In this document: positions 2 through 37,501 of the stretch, one piece after another | Numbering within the stretch: position 1 is the first letter of the stretch | Layout: each line of letters starts with the position of its first letter | Source: a virus | IMG/VR virus record: IMGVR_UViG_3300017963_000439 | Location: 1 to 40,493 of that record | Strand: one strand, 5' to 3' | Length of the DNA: 40,493 nt | The notes under the pieces: generated by a model | Told to the model about the DNA's origin: nothing | What the model saw: only the letters and a program-made list of their open reading frames with translations | Databases searched by the model: none | Translations under genes and position numbers: made by a program

Positions 2-205
2 GGGCGCTCACGAGGTGTCCACACGACAGCAATGCTGGTCGGCGACTCCCACGGTGGAAAAGTGCACTATGACATCTCGCCGAAGGCAATGCGGAAGATG
101 TTCGGGCCTTCGAAGCTCTGGAAGCGTGTCGGCCCAGAGACGCTCGGCCGCGACCTTGTGCAGATGATCTCTTCGAGCTTCGTGAACTACTTGAGGCAGA
201 GATGA
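2..205 (+). CDS. Hypothetical protein, C-terminal part (truncated by window start)
   Basis: An open frame runs from the window edge to the TGA at 203-205 and encodes at least 67 residues; an internal ATG lies at position 32. The readable part is basic and contains SPKAMRKMFGPSKLW and a helical end (LGRDLVQMISSSFVNYLRQR). I do not recognise a family. Its stop overlaps the ATG at 202 (ATGA) and lies just before the methyltransferase ATG at 207, so it is probably translationally coupled to the methylation genes. The true start lies upstream of the window. Confidence 0.6.
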   Translation, partial: GRSRGVHTTAMLVGDSHGGKVHYDISPKAMRKMFGPSKLWKRVGPETLGRDLVQMISSSFVNYLRQR

Positions 206-1029
206 CATGGATACACGTCCCCGCCACATCGAGCTCTTCGCCGGCGCCGGAGGAGGCCTCTACGCCTCCAAACTCCTCGGATGGAGGACCGTCTGCGCCG
301 TCGAGATCGACGAATTCTGCCAGAAGATCCTCGTCCAGCGACAGCGCGACGGGGTCTTCGAGCCCTTCGCCCTCTGGGATGACGTCCGAACCTTCGACGG
401 CCGACCTTGGCGCGGACGCGTCGAGGTCGTTTCAGGAGGCTTTCCCTGCCAACCGTTCTCGGTCGCCGGCAAGCGCCGCGGAGAAGACGACCCACGAAAT
501 GGGTGGCCTCACACGATCCGCATCATTCGTGAAGTACGACCCGAACTCGCATTCCTGGAGAACGTCCCAGGCCTGCTTGCCCGGTCTCACGGATACTTCG
601 GGCGAGTACTCGGAGACCTGGCCGAGGCAGGGTACCATGCGGAATGGACGGTGCTGGGAGCAGACGATTGCGGTGCCCCGCATCGGCGCAAGAGGCTCTG
701 GCTCCTTGCGTGGGATACCCACGCCGACCGTGGGCGACTCGCGCAACTCACGCAACATGACCGCCAACCGGAAGCCCGGTTCGAAGGCCCACTCGGGGAT
801 GACCCTTTCGGACTTCATCTGGATATGGCCGACGCCGAGCGCGAGGGATTGGAAGTCGGGCAAGGCGAGCGAAGCGACGCACGCGCGCAACGCGAGGCCC
901 CTCAACGAGGTGGTCGAACGCAAGGATGGTGGGCCACTGAACCCGCCCTGGGTGGAGCTTCTGATGGGCTGGCCGCTCGGCTCGACAAGTCTACACCCCA
1001 TGCGCCATTGTGCCTTGTGCCTTGGCTAA
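202..1029 (+). CDS. Overlapping +1-frame protein nested in the first cytosine methyltransferase gene
   Basis: This 275-residue frame starts at an ATG sharing an ATGA junction with the upstream stop, five bases before the methyltransferase ATG, and runs in the +1 frame relative to it. The first third is Ser/Pro-rich. The second part reads like a real protein: YDPNSHSWRTSQACL, EYSETWPRQGTMRNG, WPTPSARDWKSG, then LNPPWVELLMGWPLGST. Proteins with this series of motifs recur in phage genomes beside or within C5 methyltransferase genes, as I recall them; their function is unknown to me. The frame probably once continued into a second copy of the MGWP motif at 1420, but an HNH gene now separates the two. 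The same kind of overlap occurs again at 3325-3861. Whether it is expressed cannot be told from the sequence. Confidence 0.5.
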   Translation: MTWIHVPATSSSSPAPEEASTPPNSSDGGPSAPSRSTNSARRSSSSDSATGSSSPSPSGMTSEPSTADLGADASRSFQEAFPANRSRSPASAAEKTTHEMGGLTRSASFVKYDPNSHSWRTSQACLPGLTDTSGEYSETWPRQGTMRNGRCWEQTIAVPRIGARGSGSLRGIPTPTVGDSRNSRNMTANRKPGSKAHSGMTLSDFIWIWPTPSARDWKSGKASEATHARNARPLNEVVERKDGGPLNPPWVELLMGWPLGSTSLHPMRHCALCLG

Positions 1030-1535
1030 TGGGGTTTGGAAATGAGAAAGACGCGAACAGGGTGGAAGCGTTGCAGGGCTTGCGGTGCAGTTATGACGAG
1101 GAAGCGCTTTGCGAGCGGTCGACTAGAGGGCAACAAGGAGTGGAGGAAGAGGCTGTTTTGCAGTCTCTCCTGCGCGAACACGAGAGATGTTGTCGGAGAG
1201 CATGGCCTCTCGTGGCGAGCGAAAAAGCACCTTCTGAGCGCTTGCGAGAATTGCGGGAGCAGGAATCGGCTTTCAGCGCACCATGTCGACGGGAACCGGG
1301 AGAACAACACTCCGGAGAACATCGAGACCCTCTGCGGCAGTTGCCACACTGTTTGGCATCATATGGTGCGGAGGCTTGGCAAAGCGGAGCCTGGGAGGAT
1401 GGTATACCGCGGATAGCTCATGGGGTGGCCGATCGGGTCCACAGAATCAAAGCCCTCGGGAACGGACAGGTTCCGATTGTGGCTGCGCGCGCATTCCGCA
1501 TCCTTGCACAGCGGATAGAGGAGACGGCATCGTGA
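207..1535 (+). CDS. C5 cytosine-specific DNA methyltransferase, interrupted by an HNH insertion
   Basis: This 442-residue protein is a Dcm-type enzyme that would transfer a methyl group from S-adenosylmethionine to C5 of cytosine in phage DNA, probably as protection from host restriction. Visible motifs are I (FAGAGGG from residue 11), IV (GGFPCQ with nucleophile Cys81), VI (ENV, 118-120), VIII (GAPHRRKRLW near 156-165) and X (RIKALGNGQVP near the C-terminus). Between the target-recognition region and motif X lies an insert of about 152 residues that is simply the off-frame reading of an HNH gene. Without it the protein would be about 290 residues, a more usual size. The insert is bounded by a 24-bp imperfect direct repeat and keeps the frame open. 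Whether the enzyme still folds is uncertain. A second protein overlaps it in the +1 frame. Confidence 0.88.
   Translation: MDTRPRHIELFAGAGGGLYASKLLGWRTVCAVEIDEFCQKILVQRQRDGVFEPFALWDDVRTFDGRPWRGRVEVVSGGFPCQPFSVAGKRRGEDDPRNGWPHTIRIIREVRPELAFLENVPGLLARSHGYFGRVLGDLAEAGYHAEWTVLGADDCGAPHRRKRLWLLAWDTHADRGRLAQLTQHDRQPEARFEGPLGDDPFGLHLDMADAEREGLEVGQGERSDARAQREAPQRGGRTQGWWATEPALGGASDGLAARLDKSTPHAPLCLVPWLMGFGNEKDANRVEALQGLRCSYDEEALCERSTRGQQGVEEEAVLQSLLREHERCCRRAWPLVASEKAPSERLRELREQESAFSAPCRREPGEQHSGEHRDPLRQLPHCLASYGAEAWQSGAWEDGIPRIAHGVADRVHRIKALGNGQVPIVAARAFRILAQRIEETAS
964..987 (+). repeat. Direct repeat flanking the HNH insertion, left copy
   Basis: The 24 bases here match 1420-1443 at 20 of 24 positions, and both copies read MGWPxGST in the +1 frame. 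The copies are 456 bases apart, an exact multiple of three, and the HNH gene lies between them. This fits a duplicated target or co-converted flank left by insertion of the HNH element. Confidence 0.7.
1042..1416 (+). CDS. HNH homing-type endonuclease nested in the methyltransferase gene
   Basis: This is a 124-residue HNH nuclease. The N-terminal half has a Cys4 zinc knuckle (CRACG, then FCSLSC). The C-terminal half has CENCG, then the catalytic HNH core (SAHHVDGNRENNTPENIETL) and CGSCHTVWHH. The length and domain order are typical of free-standing phage HNH endonucleases, which cut one or both strands at a related site and spread by repair. It lies in the +1 frame inside the first methyltransferase gene. 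The start is ATG 1042; a TTG two codons earlier is possible. No clear Shine-Dalgarno sequence is visible. About 75 bases of the 456-base insert are left outside the gene, too few for a group I intron core. Confidence 0.85.
   Translation: MRKTRTGWKRCRACGAVMTRKRFASGRLEGNKEWRKRLFCSLSCANTRDVVGEHGLSWRAKKHLLSACENCGSRNRLSAHHVDGNRENNTPENIETLCGSCHTVWHHMVRRLGKAEPGRMVYRG
1420..1443 (+). repeat. Direct repeat flanking the HNH insertion, right copy
   Basis: This copy reads MGWPIGST in the +1 frame and continues to a TAG at 1516, giving a plausible original C-terminus for the overlapping protein at 202-1029. In the methyltransferase frame the same bases lead directly into motif X. It matches 964-987 at 20 of 24 positions. 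Confidence 0.7.
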
Positions 1536-2698: not shown

Positions 2699-3187
2699 AT
2701 GACCTGGAAGATCGATACGAAAAGAGCTCTCCGATGCAACTTTTGCGACCTGGTCCACGACAAGGTCGAGGCCGGAGGCCTCTGGTATTGCCCGAATCCG
2801 ATCTGCCCGGGGTGTGGAGCGGCCTATCACCGTAGGAAGATGGACAGCTATCAGGAGATAGAGAACGGACGCCACACCGTAGACCCGAAGGAGAAGATCG
2901 CGATCGGCGAAAGGTTGCTCGAGCAACTCGACCTCGACCCGAACCTGTGGGAAGCTATTGAGCGCTGCGTGATCTACTACAAGGGCGGACCGAAGCCGCA
3001 CGTGCCGAAGGGCGGCTCGGAGCGCTTCAACGACCTCGGCCGCGAGCTCGCAAGGGAAGTCCAGGAAGAGATCCGACAGGAGGAGGTCGCCAGGCAGCGG
3101 GAGGCCTTCGCCAGGAGTGAGCTGGGAGGCAACGGGCGACGCGGCCTCAAGAGGCGGGTCGATGAGCGAAAGGATGCGGATAGGTAG
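2699..3187 (+). CDS. Zinc-finger-like hypothetical protein
   Basis: This 162-residue protein has an N-terminal metal-binding pattern: CNFC, then WYCPNPICPGCGAAYHRRKMDSY (two or three Cys pairs with a His within residues 13-50). The C-terminal part is charged, helical and rich in Arg, Glu and Gln. A similar Cys-rich head followed by a DSY motif occurs in hypothetical phage proteins, with no function I can name. A GAGG Shine-Dalgarno sequence precedes ATG 2699. Its last 26 bases overlap the second methyltransferase start, so the two are probably translated together. Confidence 0.7.
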   Translation: MTWKIDTKRALRCNFCDLVHDKVEAGGLWYCPNPICPGCGAAYHRRKMDSYQEIENGRHTVDPKEKIAIGERLLEQLDLDPNLWEAIERCVIYYKGGPKPHVPKGGSERFNDLGRELAREVQEEIRQEEVARQREAFARSELGGNGRRGLKRRVDERKDADR

Positions 3188-3920
3188 CCTGTTCTCTGGG
3201 ATCGGCGGACTCGAACTGGGCCTTGAGCAGTCCGGCTTGGGCTATACGACATGGCAGGTCGAGGCCGACGCCTTCTGCCGTTCCGTGTTGGCGCGCCATT
3301 GGCCCAGGGTCAAGAGGTACGAAGATGTTCGAGAAGTCGGAAGGCACAACCTCGAGGCAGTTGAACTCATCTGCGGAGGATTTCCCTGCCAAGACATCAG
3401 CGTCGCCGGCCGAGGAGCTGGGCTCGCGGGTGCTCGCAGCGGCTTGTGGTATGAGTTCCTCCGCGTTGTCGAAGAGCTTCGACCTGCATGGGTCGTGGTC
3501 GAGAACGTGGGCCATGGCAGCTCCCGGTGGGTTGACGGTGCTCGACAAGATTTGGAACTCGAGGGCTATGAAACGCTTCCGGTCCCACTTGCAGCGAAGC
3601 ATTGCGGAGCGCCCCACATTCGATCCCGCGTCTTCGTTGTTGCCCACGCCGAGCGCGAGCAGCTACGGGAGCTCGAACAACGGGTGCCCGCACGACGGGC
3701 GCACCGAATACGCTACGAAGGGGAAGCCGAGCTTGTGGACCCTCGCGAAGCGAGAAGGTGGCAGCCTCTCCCCGAACTATGTCGAAGCGATGATGGGGTT
3801 CCCCGAGAATTGGACCGTGCCAGATTACGCGCCCTCGGAAATGCTGTCGTCCCAAGAGTAGCCGAAGTTGTCGGTCACGTGGTGTCGCAATGGCACGCAC
3901 AAATCGTGGACGAGCGATGA
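3162..3920 (+). CDS. C5 cytosine-specific DNA methyltransferase, second copy
   Basis: This 252-residue Dcm-family enzyme has motif I (FSGIGG from residue 11), motif IV (GGFPCQDIS, nucleophile Cys76), motif VI (ENV, about 114-116), motif VIII (GAPHIRSRVF) and motif X (RLRALGNAVVPRVAEVV). All catalytic motifs are present and the spacing is compact, so it is probably active. It is diverged from the first methyltransferase and lacks the HNH insert, so the two may have different targets. ATG 3162 is chosen because of the GAGG upstream; ATG 3174 directly before motif I is an alternative. Its stop overlaps the next ATG (ATGA at 3917). A second protein frame overlaps it. Confidence 0.9.
   Translation: MSERMRIGSLFSGIGGLELGLEQSGLGYTTWQVEADAFCRSVLARHWPRVKRYEDVREVGRHNLEAVELICGGFPCQDISVAGRGAGLAGARSGLWYEFLRVVEELRPAWVVVENVGHGSSRWVDGARQDLELEGYETLPVPLAAKHCGAPHIRSRVFVVAHAEREQLRELEQRVPARRAHRIRYEGEAELVDPREARRWQPLPELCRSDDGVPRELDRARLRALGNAVVPRVAEVVGHVVSQWHAQIVDER
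3325..3861 (+). CDS. Overlapping +1-frame protein nested in the second methyltransferase gene
   Basis: This frame encodes 179 residues from ATG 3325, in the same +1 relation to its host gene as 202-1029 has to the first methyltransferase. It shares that protein's pattern: an N-terminal part opposite the catalytic motifs (SAEDFPAKTSASPAEEL), then LLPTPSASSYGSSNN, then LSPNYVEAMMGFPENWT. The PTPSA element and the (N/S)PxxVExxMGxP element match the first copy although the host genes are diverged. The N-terminal similarity could be forced by the overlapping catalytic motifs, but the later motifs lie opposite a poorly conserved part of the enzyme. Expression is unproven and its own ribosome-binding site is not obvious. 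Confidence 0.5.
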   Translation: MFEKSEGTTSRQLNSSAEDFPAKTSASPAEELGSRVLAAACGMSSSALSKSFDLHGSWSRTWAMAAPGGLTVLDKIWNSRAMKRFRSHLQRSIAERPTFDPASSLLPTPSASSYGSSNNGCPHDGRTEYATKGKPSLWTLAKREGGSLSPNYVEAMMGFPENWTVPDYAPSEMLSSQE

Positions 3921-6457: not shown

Positions 6458-7042
6458 ATGGCAGAGGAGGGGATGAAGCTACTCAAGCTCGACAAGTCGC
6501 ATCTCGAATACATGCGACTGCCGCCCCGGTTGTGGCGGGTCACACCGGACAAGATCCCGGAGAGCGTGCAGCCGGTCTTCCGGCGCTTCCTTCGAGACCT
6601 CGAGGAGCGCATGACGCACGGCCCGACGGTGCTCCTGATGGGGGACCCCTTCGTCGGCAAGTCGGCGATGGCGGCTCTCGCGTGCAAACGAGCTCGCCAA
6701 TTGCGGAAGACGGTCCAGTTCTTCCGCCTCTGGGAGTACCGCGCTCTCCGCCGCAACAACGAACCCTTCGACATCGAGACTTCGATCGTGTCGCGTTGCA
6801 TGGACGTGGAGCTCCTTGTGTTCGACGACCTCACCGAAGACGACGCCAACGATAGCTGGTACGGCTTGAAGGACCTCCTGGGTTTGATCCGCACGCGGTC
6901 GGATTCGCTCCTCACGACGATCATCACGACGCGCTTGTCGGAGCAATCCCCCGTGATCGCGCACATCGTCGACTCCGTGTCGCCGCTCTTCGCGCTTCAC
7001 GTGGAAGGCCCCTCTCAGCAGGACTGGATGGAGGAGGACTGA
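6458..7042 (+). CDS. DnaC-like AAA+ helicase loader
   Basis: This 194-residue ATPase has Walker A GDPFVGKS (residues 62-69), Walker B LLVFDDL (Asp123, Asp124) and a sensor 1-like strand TIITTRL. Size and motifs fit the DnaC/IstB-type loaders that place DnaB-family helicase on single-stranded DNA at the origin. The position between a putative initiator and the helicase, which starts at 7042 in a one-base stop/start overlap, supports this. ATG 6458 follows a clear AGGAGACGGA ribosome-binding motif; the frame is open further upstream but only within the previous gene. Confidence 0.82.
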   Translation: MAEEGMKLLKLDKSHLEYMRLPPRLWRVTPDKIPESVQPVFRRFLRDLEERMTHGPTVLLMGDPFVGKSAMAALACKRARQLRKTVQFFRLWEYRALRRNNEPFDIETSIVSRCMDVELLVFDDLTEDDANDSWYGLKDLLGLIRTRSDSLLTTIITTRLSEQSPVIAHIVDSVSPLFALHVEGPSQQDWMEED

Positions 7043-9462
7043 TGGCGTACGTCGAATTTGTGTCGAAGCTCGTCCACGAGGGGCGCGAGGCGGTCTACAA
7101 GGCGGCCTCGGCAGGGATCGAACCCGACCACCTCGGTCAACAGCAGGCGAAGGACCTCTACAGCTACCTCCTCGAGTACATCAAGCAGTACGACGACTTC
7201 CCGACAGTGGCGACGATCGAGGGCTACCTCGGCATCGCCGTTCCTCCTCCGCCCCCCGAGCCTCTCGACTTCTGGATCGACCGCATCCAGGAGTTTCGGG
7301 TCCTCTCGGTTCTGCTCAAGCACGACGAGAAGATGGGCGACGCGGTCCAGCGCCGCCACGCGGGGGACGGCGTCGAGATCCTCGAAACGACCCAACGCCT
7401 CCTGCGAGAGCAGCACCTGGTGGTCGGTCGCGTCGCGGACCTCTTCGGCAACGTGCATGGCGCATGGCAGCGCTACAACGACATCAAGCAGGGCAAGCAG
7501 GGCGTCCCCTTCCCGTGGCCGAGCATGACGAATGAGACGCTCGGCATGTGGCCGAAGGATCTCATCCTCGTCGTTGCCAGGACGGGCGTCGGTAAGTGCG
7601 TGGATGGCGATACGGAGCTCATGGACCCGAAATCCGGATTGGTTCGGAAGATCCGGCATGTCGTCAGGGACCACTATAGCGGGGCAGATCGGATGCCGCG
7701 CTGCCCGTCTCCGTTCGATAGGATTCAGAGCTGGTCGAAGGACGAGGGGCGCCTAGTCAGGGCGTCGATCGCCGCGAAGGTGGACACCGGGGTGAAGGAG
7801 TGCCTCGAATTCGTTTTAGCGAGCGGCAAGAGCGTGGTGGTGACCCCGGAGCATCCCTTCATTCTCCCGGACGGATGGCGTCGAGCAGATGAAGTCCGCA
7901 TAGGCGAGACAGTTGGTACTCCGTGCCATGTCGGCTTCCCGGAGGCCCCCATTGAGATGCCGAGTGCGGAGCTCGACCTGTTGGCGGTCATGCTCGCAGA
8001 CGGTAGTTGCACCGGGCATCACGTGTCTTTCACGAAGCACGATCCGGAGATTGTTCGTATCGCTGGCGAAGCCGCAGATGAGATCGGAGCTTCCACGGTA
8101 CGCGTTCGCTCCCACGAGTACGCCTTCACTGGTACTGGTGAATCGAAGGGGAAGGTCAATCCAGTTCGCCAGCTTCTACGAGCGCACGGCGTGGACAAGA
8201 CCCTGTCGAAGAACAAGCACATTCCGGAGGCGGTCTTCCGGCTCGACCGAGACCAACTCGCCCGCTTCTTGTCTGTGTTCTGGATGTGCGATGGGTACGT
8301 GGACAACGGTCCGGGTATTGTGCTCGCGAGCGAGCGGATGTTGCGGCAGATCGCGCATCTGTTGCTCCGTTTCGGTATCCGATGCTCCGTGCATCACAAG
8401 CCGACGCGTCTGAAGGGGGCGTTGTTCGACGCGTGGCGGCTTCGTGTGTACTCCGACTGCTGGGAGACCTTTGCGGGCGAGATCGCTCTGTGGGGGAACA
8501 AGCGCAAGCGAATGCAGGAGCTGTTGCGGCGCGGTCGTAACGCGAACGTGGGGAGTCCTCGGGTCTGGGACGGGGTGCGAATCCGACGCTACAAGCGCTG
8601 CCAGCGGCACGAGAAAGGCGTGCGGGGGTCAGAAGCTTGGTGGTGGGACTCCGGTCTGTTCTGGGATCCTGTCGAAGAGATCCGGCATGCTGGAGAGCGA
8701 CGCGTCTTCGACCTTACCGTACCGGTGTCCGAGTGCTTCGTCGCCAACGACATCGTCGTGCACAACACATGGACGTTGATTCTGATGGCGCTCACCGCGT
8801 GGAAGGCCGGACACAAGGTCCTCTTCGCCACCACGGAGATGTCGCAGGACACGCTCATGCAGCGGTTCCTCGCCGTCCACCTTCGGCTGCCGTACAGGAT
8901 GCTGCGGCAGGGCAAGCTCCCCATGGTGGACGAGGTGCGTTTCGAGAATTCGCTCAACGAGCTGCAGGCGTCGGAGGGCCTCTACATCATTGGCGGCCAC
9001 TTCGACTTCCGTGTCGAGTCCGTCGATGCCGCCATCGAGGAGTGCCGCCCGGATCTCGTGATCCTCGACGGTGCCTACCTGTTGAAGGTGCCCGGCAAGA
9101 CCCGGACGGAGCGCATGGCGGAGGCTTTCAATGAGTTGAAGCGCCTCGCGATGAGCCACGAGGTCCCGCTCGTTACCACGACCCAGTTCAACCGTGAGGC
9201 GAAGAAGGGCAAGGCACAAACGAGCGTCCTTGAGAACATCGGCCTCTCCGACGTCGGCGGTTGGAACGCGGACCTCGCTTTCGCGCTCACGGCGACCGAG
9301 GAGATGGAGAAGGCACACGCGATGGGCGTCGTGATGATGAAGGGCCGCGAGGTGAAGATCGAGCCCTTCGAGGTGAACTGGGACTTCGACCTTATGGACT
9401 TCTCGGAGAAGACCGACGATCAGGGAGTCGACCTCGGCCCCGACGACGACCCGATTTTCTAG
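7042..9462 (+). CDS. DnaB-type replicative DNA helicase precursor with intein
   Basis: The 806-residue precursor would give a 416-residue helicase after removal of the 390-residue intein (residues 186-575). The N-terminal extein is a helical domain of about 150 residues followed by the RecA-fold core. The Walker A motif ARTGVGK-T is split by the intein between Lys185 and the threonine that follows it, so the unspliced protein cannot bind ATP normally. Later motifs are Walker B (DLVILDGAYLL) and a TTTQFNREAKKG segment typical of DnaB-family helicases. It should unwind the replication fork as a hexamer loaded by the preceding protein. The C-terminus is acidic and ends DDDPIF, like SSB tails. 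Confidence 0.88.
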   Translation: MAYVEFVSKLVHEGREAVYKAASAGIEPDHLGQQQAKDLYSYLLEYIKQYDDFPTVATIEGYLGIAVPPPPPEPLDFWIDRIQEFRVLSVLLKHDEKMGDAVQRRHAGDGVEILETTQRLLREQHLVVGRVADLFGNVHGAWQRYNDIKQGKQGVPFPWPSMTNETLGMWPKDLILVVARTGVGKCVDGDTELMDPKSGLVRKIRHVVRDHYSGADRMPRCPSPFDRIQSWSKDEGRLVRASIAAKVDTGVKECLEFVLASGKSVVVTPEHPFILPDGWRRADEVRIGETVGTPCHVGFPEAPIEMPSAELDLLAVMLADGSCTGHHVSFTKHDPEIVRIAGEAADEIGASTVRVRSHEYAFTGTGESKGKVNPVRQLLRAHGVDKTLSKNKHIPEAVFRLDRDQLARFLSVFWMCDGYVDNGPGIVLASERMLRQIAHLLLRFGIRCSVHHKPTRLKGALFDAWRLRVYSDCWETFAGEIALWGNKRKRMQELLRRGRNANVGSPRVWDGVRIRRYKRCQRHEKGVRGSEAWWWDSGLFWDPVEEIRHAGERRVFDLTVPVSECFVANDIVVHNTWTLILMALTAWKAGHKVLFATTEMSQDTLMQRFLAVHLRLPYRMLRQGKLPMVDEVRFENSLNELQASEGLYIIGGHFDFRVESVDAAIEECRPDLVILDGAYLLKVPGKTRTERMAEAFNELKRLAMSHEVPLVTTTQFNREAKKGKAQTSVLENIGLSDVGGWNADLAFALTATEEMEKAHAMGVVMMKGREVKIEPFEVNWDFDLMDFSEKTDDQGVDLGPDDDPIF
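7597..8766 (+). mobile_element. Intein in the helicase Walker A motif (LAGLIDADG type)
   Basis: This 390-residue in-frame intein begins with Cys (CVDGDTELMDP, block A) and ends VVHN before Thr (block G). Block B is VVVTPEHPFILPDGW. Two LAGLIDADG-like motifs (LLAVMLADGS and LSVFWMCDGYV) show a homing endonuclease domain. The +1 extein residue is Thr. Insertion in a P-loop is a classic intein site because the target is highly conserved. Confidence 0.92.
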
Positions 9463-27675: not shown

Positions 27676-30600
27676 TTGCAGCACGACCGCATCTATCAAA
27701 GCGTCTACATCACGGACCCAGGCGACCTCGATATCGTCGCGTCTGCGTGCCGGAGTTCGAAGACGATCGGGCTCGACCTCGAGACCACGAGCTTCGACCC
27801 GCGGCTCGGCAAGCCGCGGCTGTTGTCTTTGAATCCGGACGCGTCTCCGGACATTTTCGTGGTGGACCTCTTCCGCGTGGGCGGCATGGGTCCGATTCGT
27901 GAGGAGCTCCACAACCCGGATGCGGAGGTGCGCGGGCGCCCCATAGTGGTGGGGCAGAACCTGAAGTTCGACCAGAAGTGGCTCCTGCACCACTTCGATG
28001 TAGCTCTGTGGCCGATCTTCGATACGTATCGCGCGTCGAAGCTCCTGCACAACGGCCGCAAGGCGGGCCACAAGCTCGAAGAACTCTACCAGCGCGAGCT
28101 GGACACCGACACGAAGGTGCCGGCCATGGGCGGTTCGGATTGGGGCGCGGAGGAGCTCTCCGGGGTCCAGCTCGACTACGCCACGGAGGACGTCTTCTTC
28201 CTTCCGATGCTGCGCGACAAGCTGCGGCCCAAGCTCGGCGACAAGGGACTCAACAAGGTCGCGCTCCTCGAGTTTCAGGCGGTATTGCCCGAGGCGAGCA
28301 TGGAGCTCAACGGCTTTCGTATCGACCGGGAGAAGTGGCTGGCGCTTTCTAACGCGAACTGGGTGAAGGCGCAGCGGCTTCGGGATGAGCTCCTCGAAGA
28401 GCTTCCGCATCCAGACGGCCAGGTGGGTCTGTTCGGTGGAGCGCCGTGGAATCTGGACTCCCCCGACCAGATGCTCCGTTCTCTGGAGCGGAAAGGGATC
28501 AAGCTGGCGGACACGCGTCGCACGACCATGAAGATGCAGGCTGCGAAGCATCCGATCATCGACCGTATTGTGTCGTATCGTGAGGCTTCGAAGCGCTGGT
28601 CGGCTTTCGGGCCTGACTACCTGCAGCATCTGCACCCCGTGACGGGCAGGGTGCACACCTCCTTCTACCCTTTCACGGGGGCAGGAAGGTACGCTTGCCT
28701 CGCTGCGGGGTCCCCTGTTCGCACGTCGACAGGCGAACGGCCGATCGAGGCAGTGAAGGTCGGCGACTTCGTATGGACGCATAGAGGTCGATGGCGCCCC
28801 GTCGTGGCGACGCATCAGAAGGGACTGCGGGAGGCGTATGTCGTCCGGTTTAGCAGCGGGGATATTTTGACTTGCGCGTCGTCCCATCGCTTCCTATCCT
28901 CGGGAGGTGAGTGGCTAGACGTGGAGGGCATGTATCGTGAGTATTTCGAAGACGTGGATGGCGGAGCAGTCGAACATCGATGCGGCAGTTCGGTTGTATC
29001 GGAGTCCGAGGCTATTGACGCTGCAGCAGATCGCGGACGAGCTCGGAACAACCTTTCACAACGTGCAGCACGCGATGAAGGTCGGGATGCCGCAGTCGGA
29101 GAGGAAGGCGCAAAAGGCGCTACGTTATTCAGCCACGAAGAAGGGGTCCAAGAATCCGATGTGGGGGAAGAAGGGGGAGGAGCACCACAACTGGAAAGGG
29201 CAGTGCGAGGACGGCTATGGCTACCTGACGTGCCTTCACGACGGGAAACGCCAATTCGTGCATCGGGTAGTCATGGCGGAGGCACTGGGACTTCGGGAGA
29301 TTCCGGAGAGCTTTTCGGTGCATCACATCGATGGCGACACGCGGAACAATGCGCTCGACAACTTGGCTCTGGTGACGAATGCCGGGCACCAAGCCTTGCA
29401 CTATATGCAGGCCAAGGACAGCCTCTCGTTGCAGTTGAAGCGATCTACCCTTGCGGAAGTGTTGAGGTCTATGACCTCACCGTAGAGGAGGACGAGAGCT
29501 ACGAGTCGGCAGGTGTATTTTCCCACAATAGTTCGAGTCCGAACCTGCAGCAGATACCTCGAGGGAAGGCTTTTCGAGCCTGCTTTTGCCCTGAAGTCGG
29601 TTGGGTGCTCATCGGCGCCGACTACAGTCAAATCGAGCTTCGCATTATGGCGCAGCTCTCGATGGACCCGGTGCTGCTCGACATCTTCCGCTCAGGCAAG
29701 GATCCGCACCGCATCACGGCGAGCATCGTCCTCGGCATCCCTGTGGAGGAGGTGACGGACGAGCAGCGCCAGATGGCGAAGCCTATCAACTTTGGGCTGA
29801 TCTACGGCCTCATGCCGAAGAAGCTGGTCACGTATGCGTGGGCCAACTACGGCGTGAAGATGACGGAGGAGCAGGCGACGACCTTCTACAATCGCTTCTT
29901 CGAGGCGTACGAAGGTGTGCGGCGTTGGCAGCGGCACGTCATGAATTGGCAGCGCCCGAAGGGCTTCTCAAGGACGCTCGGCGGCCGGCTGCGCTACCTC
30001 GAGTCGGATGCGGACTACAACAACTTCTACAACTGCGTCGATGCCGAGACGGAGGCGCTCACGCGGCGAGGGTGGGTGAAGGGGCCGGACCTTCGGAGGG
30101 AGGATGTGCTGCTGACGAAGAGCGCGGACACGGGTGCGCTGGAATGGCAGCCGATGACGGATCTGAAGCTCTTTCCGGACTACAAGGGTCGTCTGGTGTC
30201 TTTCCGATCGAGGACATTCAATGCGGTCACGACTCCGGAGCACAGGTGGCTTGTGAGTGACAAGCACTCTGGCGAGGATGTGTGTCGTACGAGCGATCGT
30301 CTCTCGCAATGGGGGGACCACAGGATCCATCGGGTCGGATTCTATGATGGTCCGAAGCCGACCTTCTCAGATGACTTCGTGGAGCTCGCTGGGTGGCTTT
30401 TCACGGACGGCACTCTGTGCGAGCAGAAGGGGCGCAAGGTGGCGAGGCTGTATCAGAGTGCGCGGGCCAATCCGGAGAAGGTCGATCGGATCGATACGCT
30501 CTTTGAGCGCCTCGGAGCGGAGGTGTTGACCGGCCGTTACTACTATCCGAAGCACGGGCATCGAGTGACGTGGGAACTCCGGAGGGAGCACGCGGAGAGG

Positions 30601-31299
30601 CTCCACAAGGCTTTCCCGGGGCGTCTCCCGACGGCAGGCTTCCTGAACGGGTTGTCGAGAGAGCAGGCGCAGCTACTCCTGGAAGTAATGCTCCTTGGCG
30701 ATGGGTGGACAGAGGATGGCGGCCGTCGTCGCTTCTGTTGTCGGTCGAAAGCGGCCGCCGACGCTTTTCAGGTGGTCTGCGTGCTGGCAGGCGTGGCGAC
30801 GACGTGCGTGGAGCGCGATATGTCGAAGTACGAGCCGAAGTCGGAGAAGCTCTCGAACGTTCCGAAGGGCGGCAGGCACTACGTCGTCAACCTGTTGAAG
30901 CGCACGCATGTGCAGGTGCTTCAGGGTCATCGTGAGGACCGGGATGTAGACGGCGCCTTTGTGTGGTGTCCGGTCGTTCCGAACACGTACTTCGTGGCTC
31001 GGCGCGAGGGGCAGGTCTATGTCACGGGCAACACTCCGGACCAGGGCACCGGCGCGGACGGCCTCAAGAACGCCTTGTGGAAGGTTTACCACCGGCTCCG
31101 CCGCTTCGGGGACGACGTGCGAATGGTCCACATGGTGCACGACGAGATCATCGCTGAGGCCCGCGATGACGAGGGCCTTGTGGAGGAGGTCAAGGTCGAG
31201 ATCGAGCTGGGGATGAAGGAGGGGATCCAACCCTTCCTGCCCGATGTTCCGGTCGAGGTCGACGCGCATTCTGGCTACAGTTGGGCAGAGATTCACTGA
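27676..31299 (+). CDS. Family A DNA polymerase precursor with two inteins
   Basis: The 1207-residue precursor would give a 596-residue polymerase after loss of two inteins (residues 341-618 and 787-1119). The N-terminal 3'-5' exonuclease has motifs I (GLDLETTSFD), II (VVGQNLKFDQKW) and III (LDYATEDVFF). The polymerase domain has motif A (GADYSQIELRIMAQLS), motif B (RQMAKPINFGLIYG) and motif C (MVHDEI). There is no 5' nuclease domain. It is the phage replicative polymerase. The start is TTG 27676 after GGGGGTGAGGA; no better ATG exists near. The first intein sits in the conserved region before SSSPNLQQIP and the second in the NTPDQGTGAD segment, both near the catalytic centre. Confidence 0.9.
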   Translation: MQHDRIYQSVYITDPGDLDIVASACRSSKTIGLDLETTSFDPRLGKPRLLSLNPDASPDIFVVDLFRVGGMGPIREELHNPDAEVRGRPIVVGQNLKFDQKWLLHHFDVALWPIFDTYRASKLLHNGRKAGHKLEELYQRELDTDTKVPAMGGSDWGAEELSGVQLDYATEDVFFLPMLRDKLRPKLGDKGLNKVALLEFQAVLPEASMELNGFRIDREKWLALSNANWVKAQRLRDELLEELPHPDGQVGLFGGAPWNLDSPDQMLRSLERKGIKLADTRRTTMKMQAAKHPIIDRIVSYREASKRWSAFGPDYLQHLHPVTGRVHTSFYPFTGAGRYACLAAGSPVRTSTGERPIEAVKVGDFVWTHRGRWRPVVATHQKGLREAYVVRFSSGDILTCASSHRFLSSGGEWLDVEGMYREYFEDVDGGAVEHRCGSSVVSESEAIDAAADRGRARNNLSQRAARDEGRDAAVGEEGAKGATLFSHEEGVQESDVGEEGGGAPQLERAVRGRLWLPDVPSRRETPIRASGSHGGGTGTSGDSGELFGASHRWRHAEQCARQLGSGDECRAPSLALYAGQGQPLVAVEAIYPCGSVEVYDLTVEEDESYESAGVFSHNSSSPNLQQIPRGKAFRACFCPEVGWVLIGADYSQIELRIMAQLSMDPVLLDIFRSGKDPHRITASIVLGIPVEEVTDEQRQMAKPINFGLIYGLMPKKLVTYAWANYGVKMTEEQATTFYNRFFEAYEGVRRWQRHVMNWQRPKGFSRTLGGRLRYLESDADYNNFYNCVDAETEALTRRGWVKGPDLRREDVLLTKSADTGALEWQPMTDLKLFPDYKGRLVSFRSRTFNAVTTPEHRWLVSDKHSGEDVCRTSDRLSQWGDHRIHRVGFYDGPKPTFSDDFVELAGWLFTDGTLCEQKGRKVARLYQSARANPEKVDRIDTLFERLGAEVLTGRYYYPKHGHRVTWELRREHAERLHKAFPGRLPTAGFLNGLSREQAQLLLEVMLLGDGWTEDGGRRRFCCRSKAAADAFQVVCVLAGVATTCVERDMSKYEPKSEKLSNVPKGGRHYVVNLLKRTHVQVLQGHREDRDVDGAFVWCPVVPNTYFVARREGQVYVTGNTPDQGTGADGLKNALWKVYHRLRRFGDDVRMVHMVHDEIIAEARDDEGLVEEVKVEIELGMKEGIQPFLPDVPVEVDAHSGYSWAEIH
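28696..29529 (+). mobile_element. Polymerase intein 1 with an out-of-frame HNH gene in its linker
   Basis: This 278-residue intein starts with Cys (CLAAGSPVRTSTGERPIEAV, block A), has a block B-like LTCASSHRFLSSGGEW, and ends EVYDLTVEEDE then VFSHN before Ser. The middle of about 130 residues has biased composition (Gly, Glu, Arg, Ala) and no endonuclease motif in this frame, because the same DNA encodes an HNH protein in the +1 frame (28937-29485). Splicing domains look complete. Confidence 0.85.
28937..29485 (+). CDS. HNH homing endonuclease encoded out of frame inside polymerase intein 1
   Basis: This 182-residue protein is complete. It has an N-terminal helix-turn-helix (LLTLQQIADELGTTFHNVQH), a NUMOD3-like segment (GSKNPMWGKKGEEHHNWKG), and the HNH core (FVHRVVMAEALGL, then VHHIDGDTRNNALDNLALVT, then HQALHY). 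Domains, length and order match free-standing phage HNH homing endonucleases. GTG 28937 has GGAGG nine bases before it; ATG 28958 is an alternative. It reads in the +1 frame relative to the polymerase and stays wholly within intein 1. It would cut an intein-less or HNH-less allele so that the element is copied in. Confidence 0.85.
   Translation: MSISKTWMAEQSNIDAAVRLYRSPRLLTLQQIADELGTTFHNVQHAMKVGMPQSERKAQKALRYSATKKGSKNPMWGKKGEEHHNWKGQCEDGYGYLTCLHDGKRQFVHRVVMAEALGLREIPESFSVHHIDGDTRNNALDNLALVTNAGHQALHYMQAKDSLSLQLKRSTLAEVLRSMTSP
30034..31032 (+). mobile_element. Polymerase intein 2 (LAGLIDADG type)
   Basis: This 333-residue in-frame intein starts CVDAETEALTRRG, has block B AVTTPEHRWLVSD, and LAGLIDADG-like motifs LAGWLFTDGTL and LLEVMLLGDGWTEDG. 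It ends YFVARREGQVYVTGN before Thr. It splits the Asn from the conserved TPxQGxxAD polymerase segment. Confidence 0.92.
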
Positions 31300-34146: not shown

Positions 34147-34469
34147 TGGTCGAAGTTGACGACGTCCTCGAAGCTGTGTTCGGAATTCGTTCGGACTCTG
34201 CGTCCGACGTGACCCCTTCTGCCCTCGATGCGGACCGGTCGGAGGAGGTCGCGGAGTTGCTCGACTATGAGCAGGTGGTGCGCCAAGCTGGCATTCTCGC
34301 TGCTCAGGCTGTGGCGGACGGATTGGAGTCTGCCGGTTTGAGGCCTGCGGACTACTGCTCGCTGTTGCGCTTGCGGGAGCTGGTCCTGGAGCGACTTGTC
34401 AAAGCGATGCCAGAGTACGCGGAAGGCTTCATGGATGCCTTCTCCCAGCAGATGAGGATGAGGGGATGA
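34146..34469 (+). CDS. Hypothetical protein between terminase and portal
   Basis: This 107-residue acidic protein is predicted as helices (SEEVAELLDYEQVVRQAGIL, then LLRLRELVLERLVKAM). Its start shares a base with the terminase stop and its stop overlaps the portal start (ATGA at 34466). No family is recognised; position suggests a packaging or head accessory. Confidence 0.65.
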   Translation: MVEVDDVLEAVFGIRSDSASDVTPSALDADRSEEVAELLDYEQVVRQAGILAAQAVADGLESAGLRPADYCSLLRLRELVLERLVKAMPEYAEGFMDAFSQQMRMRG

Positions 34470-37400
34470 GCCTTCTCGGCGATACGCTTCGGCGCGTTCG
34501 AGGTCTCTTCGCCAGGGACAAGGAGCAGGTTCAGATGCGCCTCTCAAGTGGCGCGACTTCCTCCTTCATGCCCGGCACGTCGTACGACCTGCTGCAGAGC
34601 TACGGGTACGACGTGATCGCCGACTACCTGCGGCTTGAGCAGGACCTCATGTCCCGCTTCGTCGACTACGAGTCGATGGACGATTACGGGGAGGTCGCGG
34701 CGACGCTCAACATCTACGCGGACGATGCCACGCAGCCGGACACCCCGACGAACAAGCGTGTCTGGGTGGACTCCCCTGACAAGGATTTGGCGCAGTTGCT
34801 CAACGACTTCCTGCATCGCGTTCTGCGCGTGGAGGAGGACCAGTGGTCGATCTGCCGCACCATGTGCAAGTACGGCAACGACTACGAGGAGATCGTTGTC
34901 CACCCCGAGGAGGGCGTGGTCGCGCTCAACCATCTGCCGACGCACACGGTCCGCCGCGTGGAAGGCCCGCGCGGAGAGCTCTACGGCTTCGTCCAGGACT
35001 TCAATCGTCGCATCGGGTACACGCCGAAGGAGTTTCACGACCTCGTCTCGAAGAAGATGCGCACGTCGCCAAAGTCGGACCGCTGGGGGCCGGACAAGAC
35101 GACCGGGTACGACGAGGTCGTTCCATTCGAGCCGTGGCAGGTGGCTCACTTCCGGCACCGTGGCAAGCATCGCCGCTCGATCTACGGCTACTGCTTGGCG
35201 GGCGATTCCCGGGTGTGGACCACGGAGGGGGCCAAGGCGATCGAGGATGTGCGGCCCGGGGACCGGGTGCTCTTCCGACACGCCGGGATGCTTCGGACGT
35301 CGAAGGTGCAAGACCAAGTGTGCAGCGGCACAAAGCCGTTGTTCAAGCTCCGGACGAAGCATCGGGAGCTTCGGTTGACGGCAGAGCATCCTGTTCTTCG
35401 TTGGAACGGCGGCAAGAACAATCAGTGGGTCCCTGTAGGGGAACTCGAGCTCGGGGACAAGGTCTGCGTGGCCACGAACATGCCGCAGATGAAGGGGCCT
35501 CCGGCTTTCGGTTTGGAACTCCTGAAGGAAGAGGAGCGGTCTCGCGTTCGCTTTACAGAGCGGGGGGCTTCGGCTATTCGCGAGTGCTCCCGGGTGAACT
35601 CGTACGCCCCACGTGACGAAGGGATCCGACCAGCCGCTGCGGCGCAGGGGATTACCCGGGGTCAGCTCGAAGAGCTCCTGGAAGGACACAGCTCGCTGGA
35701 GCGGGCGCAGGCCCGGCGATTCTTCGAGTCTGTTGGGCTCCCTTTCTTCGAGGGTGCCACGGCTCTTGTTCGAGACGCGCGCTTGACGCTTCCGGACTTC
35801 GTCACTGCCGACATTGCGCGCCTGTGGGGTTTCCTCCTGGGGGACGGCTGGGTGACAGATGGCCAGGTCTATTTCGCTCGTGGGGTGAACGAAGACCAGA
35901 ACCTCTACTACGAAGGACTGCTGCGGGCCTTGGGCTTGGATGTGGCCCGGATTCGAGATGAGGAAGGTGTCGAGAGGCAGTCTTACGTATCGAGTACGGT
36001 CCTTGTGAGCTTGTTGCGCCGTTTGGGGTGGACTGATGGTGCTCATAGGAAGCGGGTCCCCTCCTGGGTTTACACTTGCTCCCGTGAGCTGCGTGAGGCC
36101 TTCGTGCAGGGTTTCCAAGATGCAGACGGGTGGGAGACGACTCAGGGGCCAGAGCCCTACTATCATATCGAGCTGTGTAATGAGCGGCTCCTGCGAGACC
36201 TGAAGAATCTGATTGACGGTCTCGGTTGGGTGAGCGGTAATATCAGGGAGCGGGCAGAGCGGACGAGCATTATCAAGGGTCGGGAGGTTTTTTCGGGGAA
36301 GGGCTACTTGCTCTACTACAGGAAGGCCCCCTTGTCGGATGGCGACTTCTTGTTCGAGAAAGTCGAGGCGATCGAGGCCGATGGCGAGGGTCCTGTCTAC
36401 GACATCGAGATCGCGGCGAGGGGTCACAATTTCGTGGCCGAGGGCATGGTGGTCCACAATTCGGTTCTCGAGCCGGCGCGATGGGTCTGGAAGCGCCTTG
36501 TGCTCCTCGAGGATGCGGCGTTGATCTACCGGCTGCAGCGCGCGCCTGAGCGCTTCGCTTTCTACGTGGACACTGGCAATCGCCCCATGAACGAGGCGCT
36601 TCGGTTGCTTCACACCGTGCGGCAGCAGTACAAGAAGAAACGCTACATCAACCCGCGCACGAACAAGCTCGACCTCAAGCTCGACATGCTCGCCCAGGAC
36701 GAGGACATCTTCATCCCCGTCGTCAACGGCTCCGAGTCGACCCGCGTGGAGGTGCTCGGCGGTCCGTCTTGGCAGCACATGGAGGACATCGAGTACTTCC
36801 TCAATAAGCTCTTCGCCGCGCTTCACGTTCCGAAGGCGTATCTGAGCCAGGAAGAGGGGGTCAACAGAGCGATTCTGTCGAGCGAGGATGTCCGCTTCGC
36901 GCGCACGATCCTGCGCGTGCAGCAGGACATGCGGCTCGGCATCGAGAAGATTTGCCGTGTCCACCTGGCTGCGATCGGCATCCCGCCCGACAAGGTCGAA
37001 TTCGATGTTCGCTTTACCGTTCCGAACTCGATTTTCGAGCTTGCGCAGCTCGAAGTGCGGAACGCGCGGGCGGACTTCGCTTCTCGCGTCAGCGAGCATG
37101 TCTCGCGGGAGTGGATGCTGTCGAACGTCTACCATCTCACGGATGAGGAGATCCACACCGTCCTTACGCAGCGGGACGAAGAACTCATCCACCAGATGGA
37201 GGTTCAGGGCAAGGCAGAGGCCGCCATGCAGAAGCAGATGGGCGGTGGCATGGGCGGCATGACCATGTCGAATCCGCCTCCCCAACGCCCCTTGCTTACC
37301 GGTCGTAGCCCGGTGGCCAACTTGATCGGTGAGGGTGCGGGTGCTATCTCTTTGCAGGAGCTTGAGAAGTCCGGTCGAGAAGATCGGAAGCAGATGCGGG

Positions 37401-37501
37401 GTGAAATTGACCGCGTCCTCCGCAGCAACTACGCTATAGGGCGCAAAGTACATGAGCTCCGCGGTTTGATGCAGTCGCTACACTACGCCGTCCGGAAATG
37501 A
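34466..37501 (+). CDS. Portal protein precursor with intein, T4 gp20-like
   Basis: The 1011-residue precursor would give a 588-residue portal after removal of the 423-residue intein (243-665). The C-terminal extein has features of T4 gp20-type portals: ALIYRLQRAPERFAFYVDTG, an internal QQYKKKRYINPRTNKLD, AQDEDIFIPVVNG and VEVLGGPSWQHMEDIEYFLN. The N-terminal part includes DYESMDDYGEVAATLNIYAD. It forms the dodecameric ring through which DNA enters. The C-terminal tail has a Met/Gly-rich stretch (MGGGMGGMTM). The stop overlaps the next ATG. Confidence 0.88.
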   Translation: MSLLGDTLRRVRGLFARDKEQVQMRLSSGATSSFMPGTSYDLLQSYGYDVIADYLRLEQDLMSRFVDYESMDDYGEVAATLNIYADDATQPDTPTNKRVWVDSPDKDLAQLLNDFLHRVLRVEEDQWSICRTMCKYGNDYEEIVVHPEEGVVALNHLPTHTVRRVEGPRGELYGFVQDFNRRIGYTPKEFHDLVSKKMRTSPKSDRWGPDKTTGYDEVVPFEPWQVAHFRHRGKHRRSIYGYCLAGDSRVWTTEGAKAIEDVRPGDRVLFRHAGMLRTSKVQDQVCSGTKPLFKLRTKHRELRLTAEHPVLRWNGGKNNQWVPVGELELGDKVCVATNMPQMKGPPAFGLELLKEEERSRVRFTERGASAIRECSRVNSYAPRDEGIRPAAAAQGITRGQLEELLEGHSSLERAQARRFFESVGLPFFEGATALVRDARLTLPDFVTADIARLWGFLLGDGWVTDGQVYFARGVNEDQNLYYEGLLRALGLDVARIRDEEGVERQSYVSSTVLVSLLRRLGWTDGAHRKRVPSWVYTCSRELREAFVQGFQDADGWETTQGPEPYYHIELCNERLLRDLKNLIDGLGWVSGNIRERAERTSIIKGREVFSGKGYLLYYRKAPLSDGDFLFEKVEAIEADGEGPVYDIEIAARGHNFVAEGMVVHNSVLEPARWVWKRLVLLEDAALIYRLQRAPERFAFYVDTGNRPMNEALRLLHTVRQQYKKKRYINPRTNKLDLKLDMLAQDEDIFIPVVNGSESTRVEVLGGPSWQHMEDIEYFLNKLFAALHVPKAYLSQEEGVNRAILSSEDVRFARTILRVQQDMRLGIEKICRVHLAAIGIPPDKVEFDVRFTVPNSIFELAQLEVRNARADFASRVSEHVSREWMLSNVYHLTDEEIHTVLTQRDEELIHQMEVQGKAEAAMQKQMGGGMGGMTMSNPPPQRPLLTGRSPVANLIGEGAGAISLQELEKSGREDRKQMRGEIDRVLRSNYAIGRKVHELRGLMQSLHYAVRK
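35192..36460 (+). mobile_element. Intein in the portal gene (LAGLIDADG type)
   Basis: This 423-residue intein begins CLAGDSRVWTTEGAKAIEDV, has block B LRLTAEHPVLRWNGG, LAGLIDADG-like motifs LWGFLLGDGWVTDG and FVQGFQDADGWETT, and ends VYDIEIAARGHNFVAEG then MVVHN before Ser. The insertion point is YGY-SVLEPARW, a conserved portal segment. Codon choice in the central part is less GC-rich than the portal exteins, consistent with separate ancestry. Confidence 0.92.

Follow-up and report, generated by a model that had tools for sequence, protein, structure and literature searches.

The window analysed here, a 40,493-base IMG/VR virus record (IMGVR_UViG_3300017963_000439), carries near its left end a C5-cytosine DNA methyltransferase ORF that contains a second gene, coding for an HNH endonuclease, in another reading frame. 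The methyltransferase host frame stays open through the whole insert (Table 1). That a real HNH gene is nested in this way, with the host frame kept open, is practically certain. The explanation that we favour combines a mobile HNH insertion, an enzyme translated through it and homing at the MGWP site, and as a whole we give it a probability of about 0.8.

Table 1. Features of the window and, where a locus is named, of related loci
Feature	Position	Strand	Remarks
C5-cytosine DNA methyltransferase ORF, 442 aa	207..1535	+	frame 0; PF00145 4.1e-37, residues 7-172
+1-frame companion ORF, ends in ...LNPPWVELLMGWPLGST...	202..1029	+	phrog_1008 2.8e-23, phrog_26627 1.1e-7
Upstream 24-bp direct repeat	964..987	+	frame 0 DGLAARLD; +1 frame MGWPLGST
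Weak Shine-Dalgarno-like stretch (GGGG) before HNH start	1022..1038	+	duplex -5.9 kcal/mol; control median -3.3
HNH endonuclease ORF, 124 aa, +1 frame relative to methyltransferase	1042..1416	+	Pfam/PHROG HNH
Companion-frame downstream remainder (LMGWPIGSTESKPSGTDRFRLWLRAHSASLHSG*)	1417..1518	+	translation, rejoined frame
Downstream 24-bp direct repeat	1420..1443	+	frame 0 HGVADRVH; +1 frame MGWPIGST
Second C5 methyltransferase, uninterrupted; empty homologous site (DDGVPRELDRARLRALGNAVVP)	3117..3920	+	PF00145 1.4e-37
Intein domain in DnaB-like helicase, with LAGLIDADG	7042-9462		
Intein domains in DNA polymerase I, probably two inteins	27676-31299		
Second HNH gene, +1-nested in first intein of DNA polymerase I	28937-29485 within 27676-31299		HNH_3, 1.1e-12
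Intein domain in T4-like portal protein	34466-37501		
+1-nested HNHs, terminase mini-intein-like segments	L114 2851-3126, L106 1196-1501, L091 3001-3297		
+1-nested HNH in polA gene near KAENFGFLYG motif	L113 2833-3153		

The methyltransferase gene and the flanking repeats

The methyltransferase ORF contains the motifs GGFPCQPFS and LENV, with the catalytic PCQ and ENV, and KALGNGQVP (motif X), which identify it as a C5 enzyme, and its C-terminal motif RIKALGNGQVP aligns with uninterrupted homologues. A sequence-only reading of this DNA had placed the HNH gene in the +1 frame between two copies of a 24-base sequence lying 456 bases apart. This was confirmed: the copies are identical at 20 of 24 positions, their spacing corresponds to 152 codons, and the best 24-mer match in codon-shuffled flanks did not exceed 17. 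The pair was recognised by direct comparison and is not among the results of the automated repeat search. The same reading had held that excision of one repeat together with the HNH gene would restore an enzyme of about 290 residues and a continuous companion protein. Removal of the 152 residues indeed leaves a protein of 290 aa that aligns end to end with uninterrupted homologues, and it raises the local score against the methyltransferase of Acinetobacter phage ABMM1 from 487 to 546, the alignment then extending over the C-terminal motif (...HGVADRVHRIKALGNGQVP...). The +1 companion frame is made continuous by the same removal (...LNPPWVELLMGWPIGSTESKPSGTDRFRLWLRAHSASLHSG*).

In uninterrupted homologues the site is found once, with DGVxxRVDRLKALGN in frame 0 and LMGWPxGWTD in the +1 frame. 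In the window it is present twice, at the end of the upstream flank and again at the start of the downstream flank, and the downstream repeat was aligned with the single site of the uninterrupted L018 and L004. The two repeats therefore both represent the single MGWP/DGVxxRVDRL site of uninterrupted genes, and the objection that they might be unrelated conserved motifs did not hold.

The stop codon of the companion ORF is located at 1027-1029, and the HNH ORF then opens in the same +1 frame. PHROGs labels the phrog_1008-type companion 'DNA methyltransferase'. Companion ORFs of this family, with the motif LNPxWVExLMGWPxGWT, overlap both C5 methyltransferases of the window in the +1 frame (202-1029 and 3223-3861), and the methyltransferase region appears, as far as the sequence can tell, to be doubly coding even without the HNH gene.

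The HNH gene and its product

The HNH ORF starts with ATG at 1042, or alternatively with TTG at 1036, and ends with TAG at 1414-1416. Its score against Pfam HNH (PF01844) is 20.6 bits, slightly below the cut-off of 21.4, and comparison with the PHROG HNH families gave phrog_1271 (2.4e-10). The zinc cysteines C11, C14, C40, C44, C68, C71, C98 and C101 (two zinc sites) are invariant in 28 divergent relatives, as are H80, H81, D83, N88, N93, H102 and H106. The AF2 model has a mean pLDDT of 90, and a VIA fold comparison of it yielded HNH enzymes with moderate Z values (best 7.2), while no Foldseek match to it reached E 0.001. By its motif, zinc cysteines and fold, the gene belongs to the HNH superfamily. 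HNH copies differ mainly at the third positions of codons, the pattern to be expected if the protein is under selection, and judging from the sequence and the model the HNH protein looks functional. Shine-Dalgarno-like sites were found at 51% of the HNH starts, compared to 21% of control positions, and that of the window is itself weak.

Openness of the host frame

As had been noted from the sequence, the window insert contains no stop in the enzyme frame, compared to 5.2 expected with resampled codons (P=0.0026) and 6.0 with synonymous shuffling (P=0.0002). Relatives were gathered by tblastn and profile scans, and those recovered included Komagataeibacter phage phiKX1 (HNH 49.5% identical), Staphylococcus phage CUB-EPI_14 and many IMG/VR contigs. 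A related HNH gene was found within a C5-methyltransferase reading frame at 57 non-redundant loci, and its frame was +1 in all 48 non-redundant loci whose whole methyltransferase ORF could be scored across the HNH gene; phiKX1 and CUB-EPI_14 are both among the +1-nested loci. Not one host-frame stop was present in the 6,096 codons of the 57 nested loci, compared to 391 expected from resampling with the local base composition and 274 from synonymous shuffling. For the AT-rich CUB-EPI_14, 18.6 stops were expected and none was found. The non-nested HNH relatives (n=22), in contrast, had 196 stops where 180-212 were expected, the sorting into nested and non-nested copies having used host-frame openness partly as a criterion. 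The distribution is bimodal, and the gap between the two groups, together with AT-rich cases such as CUB-EPI_14, makes a sorting artefact inadequate as an explanation. A genome scan with a narrower HNH alignment returned three nested loci among 25 matches, a scan of viral contigs with the window HNH as sole query returned no relative, and a plasmid scan for HNH gave weak partial matches only. The nesting spans dozens of phage and prophage-like contigs, from Gram-negative as well as Gram-positive hosts.

The codons of the HNH gene in the +1 frame are constrained such that host-frame stops are absent. In this relation the host stops all start with a T at the HNH wobble position, so that all of them can be eliminated while the nuclease stays the same, and any protein could be written stop-free by synonymous choice. 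This reasoning from the code is supported by the counts: in nested copies a wobble T precedes GA, AA or AG in 0 of 1,408 cases, and it is used in 34% of safe contexts, compared to 43-48% in non-nested copies. With +2 nesting, TGA is unavoidable wherever Met precedes a codon that has to begin with A. An equally simple explanation of the common frame would be descent from one +1 founder in this HNH family.

An open host frame in all copies scored as nested is also what would be seen if the 152 residues belonged to the methyltransferase as a real domain and the HNH frame had arisen by coincidence. This alternative has already been refuted by the comparison that the sequence-only reading had named as decisive for it, since the uninterrupted homologues lack the 150 residues. 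It is also opposed by the Pfam and PHROG matches, invariant residues and pLDDT-90 model of the HNH frame, by the existence of non-nested HNH relatives and by the weak constraint on the host-frame residues, and we give it almost no credence.

Insertion site and empty sites

In many other methyltransferases, HNH relatives adjoin the MGxP site on its 3' side with the host frame open. Across loci the insert is positioned directly before motif X or, where a canonical motif IX is present, mostly directly before motif IX. Insert-free relatives, by which the sequence-only reading had proposed to check the insertion, are present. The clearest empty-site pair consists of the uninvaded L151 (...DDGFSDRL-DSITFPKWRNESIKAGGNAIVPQ...) and the invaded L067 (...DDGVSNKL[insert]..FESWHRNESIKAGGNAIVPQ...). 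Phage IME-SA4 is an uninvaded relative of CUB-EPI_14 (the first 771 bases of the gene are 85% identical at the DNA level), and the second methyltransferase of the window itself has an empty site. In a sample from scans not aimed at HNH, 93 of 94 methyltransferases were uninvaded and a single one was invaded.

This last count bears on the idea of a restriction-modification-like unit, in which the methyltransferase would protect the site of the HNH protein and the frame overlap would lock the pair together. One DNA stretch is shared by both in every methyltransferase-host case, as such a unit would have it, but the methyltransferase occurs without the HNH gene in nearly all of the sampled relatives, similar HNHs are found in methyltransferases of very different sequence, and HNH relatives are nested also in terminase inteins and polA. 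We consider the idea very improbable.

A strong repeat was found in the window (20/24), L026 (20/24) and L116 (19/24); it is less clear in L117, and in L054 it lies at another site. A target-site duplication throughout the family was rejected, as just 6 of 63 loci exceeded all shuffles by at least 2. From these alignments the near-perfect repeat appears to be limited to the sub-lineage of the window (window, L026, L116 and perhaps L117), where alone it is clear.

Probable mobility of the insert

In the pairs L080/L095 and L043/L045 the HNH DNA is 76-82% identical and the upstream methyltransferase DNA 42-63%, and in L039/L040 the HNH proteins share 89% identity compared to 58% for the host proteins. 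HNH copies can thus be much more similar to each other than the genes that contain them, as lateral movement of the insert predicts, and the sequences make a mobile homing-type element probable. The earlier suggestion of a homing nuclease settled at MGWP with the host still readable is therefore supported, homing itself being deduced from the distribution.

The HNH gene might instead be carried passively, moving with recombining C-terminal or target-recognition modules, in which case its nuclease activity would be irrelevant. Even close pairs (L067/L069) differ greatly in the target-recognition region between core and insert, and raised identity often persists for ~100 nt downstream of the insert, both of which would fit such transport. 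However, identity is at its maximum at the insert and not in the upstream module, the catalytic and zinc residues have been kept in the 28 divergent copies with substitutions favouring the third codon position, and unrelated HNH families nest likewise in inteins and polA. Passive transport is therefore regarded as unlikely.

Fate of the insert in the enzyme

An Rfam scan of positions 700-1700 with E values up to 1 gave no relevant match, group I and group II introns included, in agreement with the earlier remark that the insert is too small for a group I intron. The only Pfam domain in the methyltransferase ORF is DNA_methylase, with no Hint or intein domain, whereas true inteins elsewhere in the window were detected. 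As neither an intron nor a splicing domain was matched, it is simplest to suppose that the insert is translated along with the rest of the host frame, and the enzyme is, by this sequence evidence, likely made with ~152 extra residues retained. The direct repeats, spaced by an exact number of codons, could also suggest that the insert is removed as an intron or intein, or skipped by a translational hop; a hop from one matched site to the other would give back the 290-aa enzyme. Against removal or a hop stand the results of these domain and Rfam searches and the lack of conservation of the repeats across the family. Moreover, an insert that is removed or skipped would have no need of a host frame open over 152 codons, as it is kept at 57 loci. 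Removal or skipping is accordingly judged most unlikely.

Among pairs of L052, L067, L068 and L069, 34 of 100 four-fold sites had diverged in the HNH genes and 120 of 281 in the methyltransferase; the two genes thus diverge at similar rates at these sites, and the host-frame residues seem to be tolerated, not useful. Strong selection on these residues was considered and is unsupported, as the four-fold sites diverge freely. In the model of the methyltransferase, pLDDT is about 30-56 through the target-recognition and insert region, with no confident fold, and the confidence for the target-recognition region before the insert is no better than that for the insert (about 40-56).

The N-terminal methyltransferase frame of L035 stops at 2957-2959, where the insert starts, and that of L038 is apparently also broken at or before the insert. 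The arrangement is therefore not always harmless, and invaded genes can decay or be differently arranged. In L035 (2860-3080), L038 (1560-1770) and L054 (2445-3992), it is the companion frame, in place of the N-terminal methyltransferase frame, that runs through the HNH gene into the C-terminal methyltransferase frame. In L118, an Acutalibacter contig, the nested HNH gene (1931-2149) is truncated by a stop and the methyltransferase frame remains open; this copy is possibly decaying.

Proposed mechanism

We propose that a phage C5 methyltransferase gene was invaded by a mobile HNH gene. The insert lies directly 3' of the conserved site that codes for MGWP, with the target-recognition region before it and motif X, the last of the catalytic motifs, after it. 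The ribosome would read straight through, producing a 442-residue enzyme with a weakly constrained excursion of ~152 residues, beside which the stretch that leads to motif X would be present as a restored copy. The HNH protein would be translated separately from its own start or, alternatively, by re-initiation after the stop of the companion ORF ~13 nt upstream. It may then cut or nick insert-free alleles at the MGWP site, and repair would copy the insert in, resulting in homing. The MGWP site might be conserved because it is doubly coding, which offers a reason for the conservation of the target DNA. A mobile gene thus seems able to occupy the coding sequence of another gene without splicing.

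Nesting in other host genes

The second HNH gene of the window, in the first polA intein, likewise has no host-frame stop, compared to 8.3 expected. As it comes from a different HNH family, frame nesting may have arisen more than once. Terminase genes, in mini-intein-like segments, and one polA gene contain further +1-nested HNHs (Table 1). The window phage is unusually rich in inteins. We lean slightly towards the view that frame nesting is a third general route for homing genes, besides introns and inteins, in which unrelated HNH families have been shaped synonymously to be stop-free; the proposed invaded hosts are C5 methyltransferases, polA and terminase intein spacers and, apparently, polA itself. 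The fixed frame, the measurable codon signature and the recurrence in inteins provide a testable rule for the splicing-free invasion of conserved coding DNA. They also carry a warning for annotation, as long methyltransferase or intein ORFs may conceal a second gene.

Comparison with known systems

In HNHs encoded by inteins or group I introns, such as I-HmuI, the insert is removed by the self-splicing intron or intein, whereas nothing able to splice was seen in the methyltransferase insert; host readability is there ensured by splicing and here by the choice of frame. The resemblance to I-HmuI (1u3e) consists in the HNH fold (Z 3.4 over 57 residues, 2.5 A) and in insertion at a conserved coding site. 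Literature searches for further nested or intein-nested HNHs led only to the ShiLan papers and to a single genome announcement in which an out-of-frame HNH is cited.

The ShiLan domain is an out-of-frame HNH in a mycobacteriophage methylase (PMC11855218; first described in 2023, PMC9957025), with no host-frame stops, a patchy distribution and no intron or intein signature (PMC11855218, PMC9957025). It was also reported that the first part of the insert resembles, over 11 residues, the host sequence directly following the insert, and that no ribosome-binding site was detectable (PMC11855218). In the ShiLan genome compared here (JN020143), the HNH region has no host-frame stop, compared to 5.4 expected. 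A second published hidden out-of-frame HNH-like ORF is the insertion in the gp60 methylase of phage Pacc40 (PMC11855218), which by its description is set apart by a divergent helicase-methylase host, another site and another ORF family. In the searched literature, published out-of-frame HNHs of methylases are confined to a few mycobacteriophages, whereas the distribution found here is far wider.

The window element shares with ShiLan an out-of-frame HNH in a phage DNA methyltransferase gene, a stop-free host frame, no sign of an intron or intein, a patchy spread and, next to the insert, the duplication of a short piece of host sequence, which in ShiLan is 11 aa long. Its family, with movement between divergent methyltransferases and patchiness, is of the ShiLan type in these respects. 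However, ShiLan gp65 has a DPPY motif as in N6/N4-type methyltransferases, whereas the window enzyme is of the C5 type; the ShiLan HNH is in the +2 frame and not in the +1 frame; it has a central HNH with flanking zinc fingers and scores below 10 bits per domain against the HNH profile of the window family. The insertion sites also differ, and Shine-Dalgarno-like sites occur at about half of the window-family loci. By sequence comparison, the window element is thus ShiLan-like in its working, yet not the ShiLan element proper.
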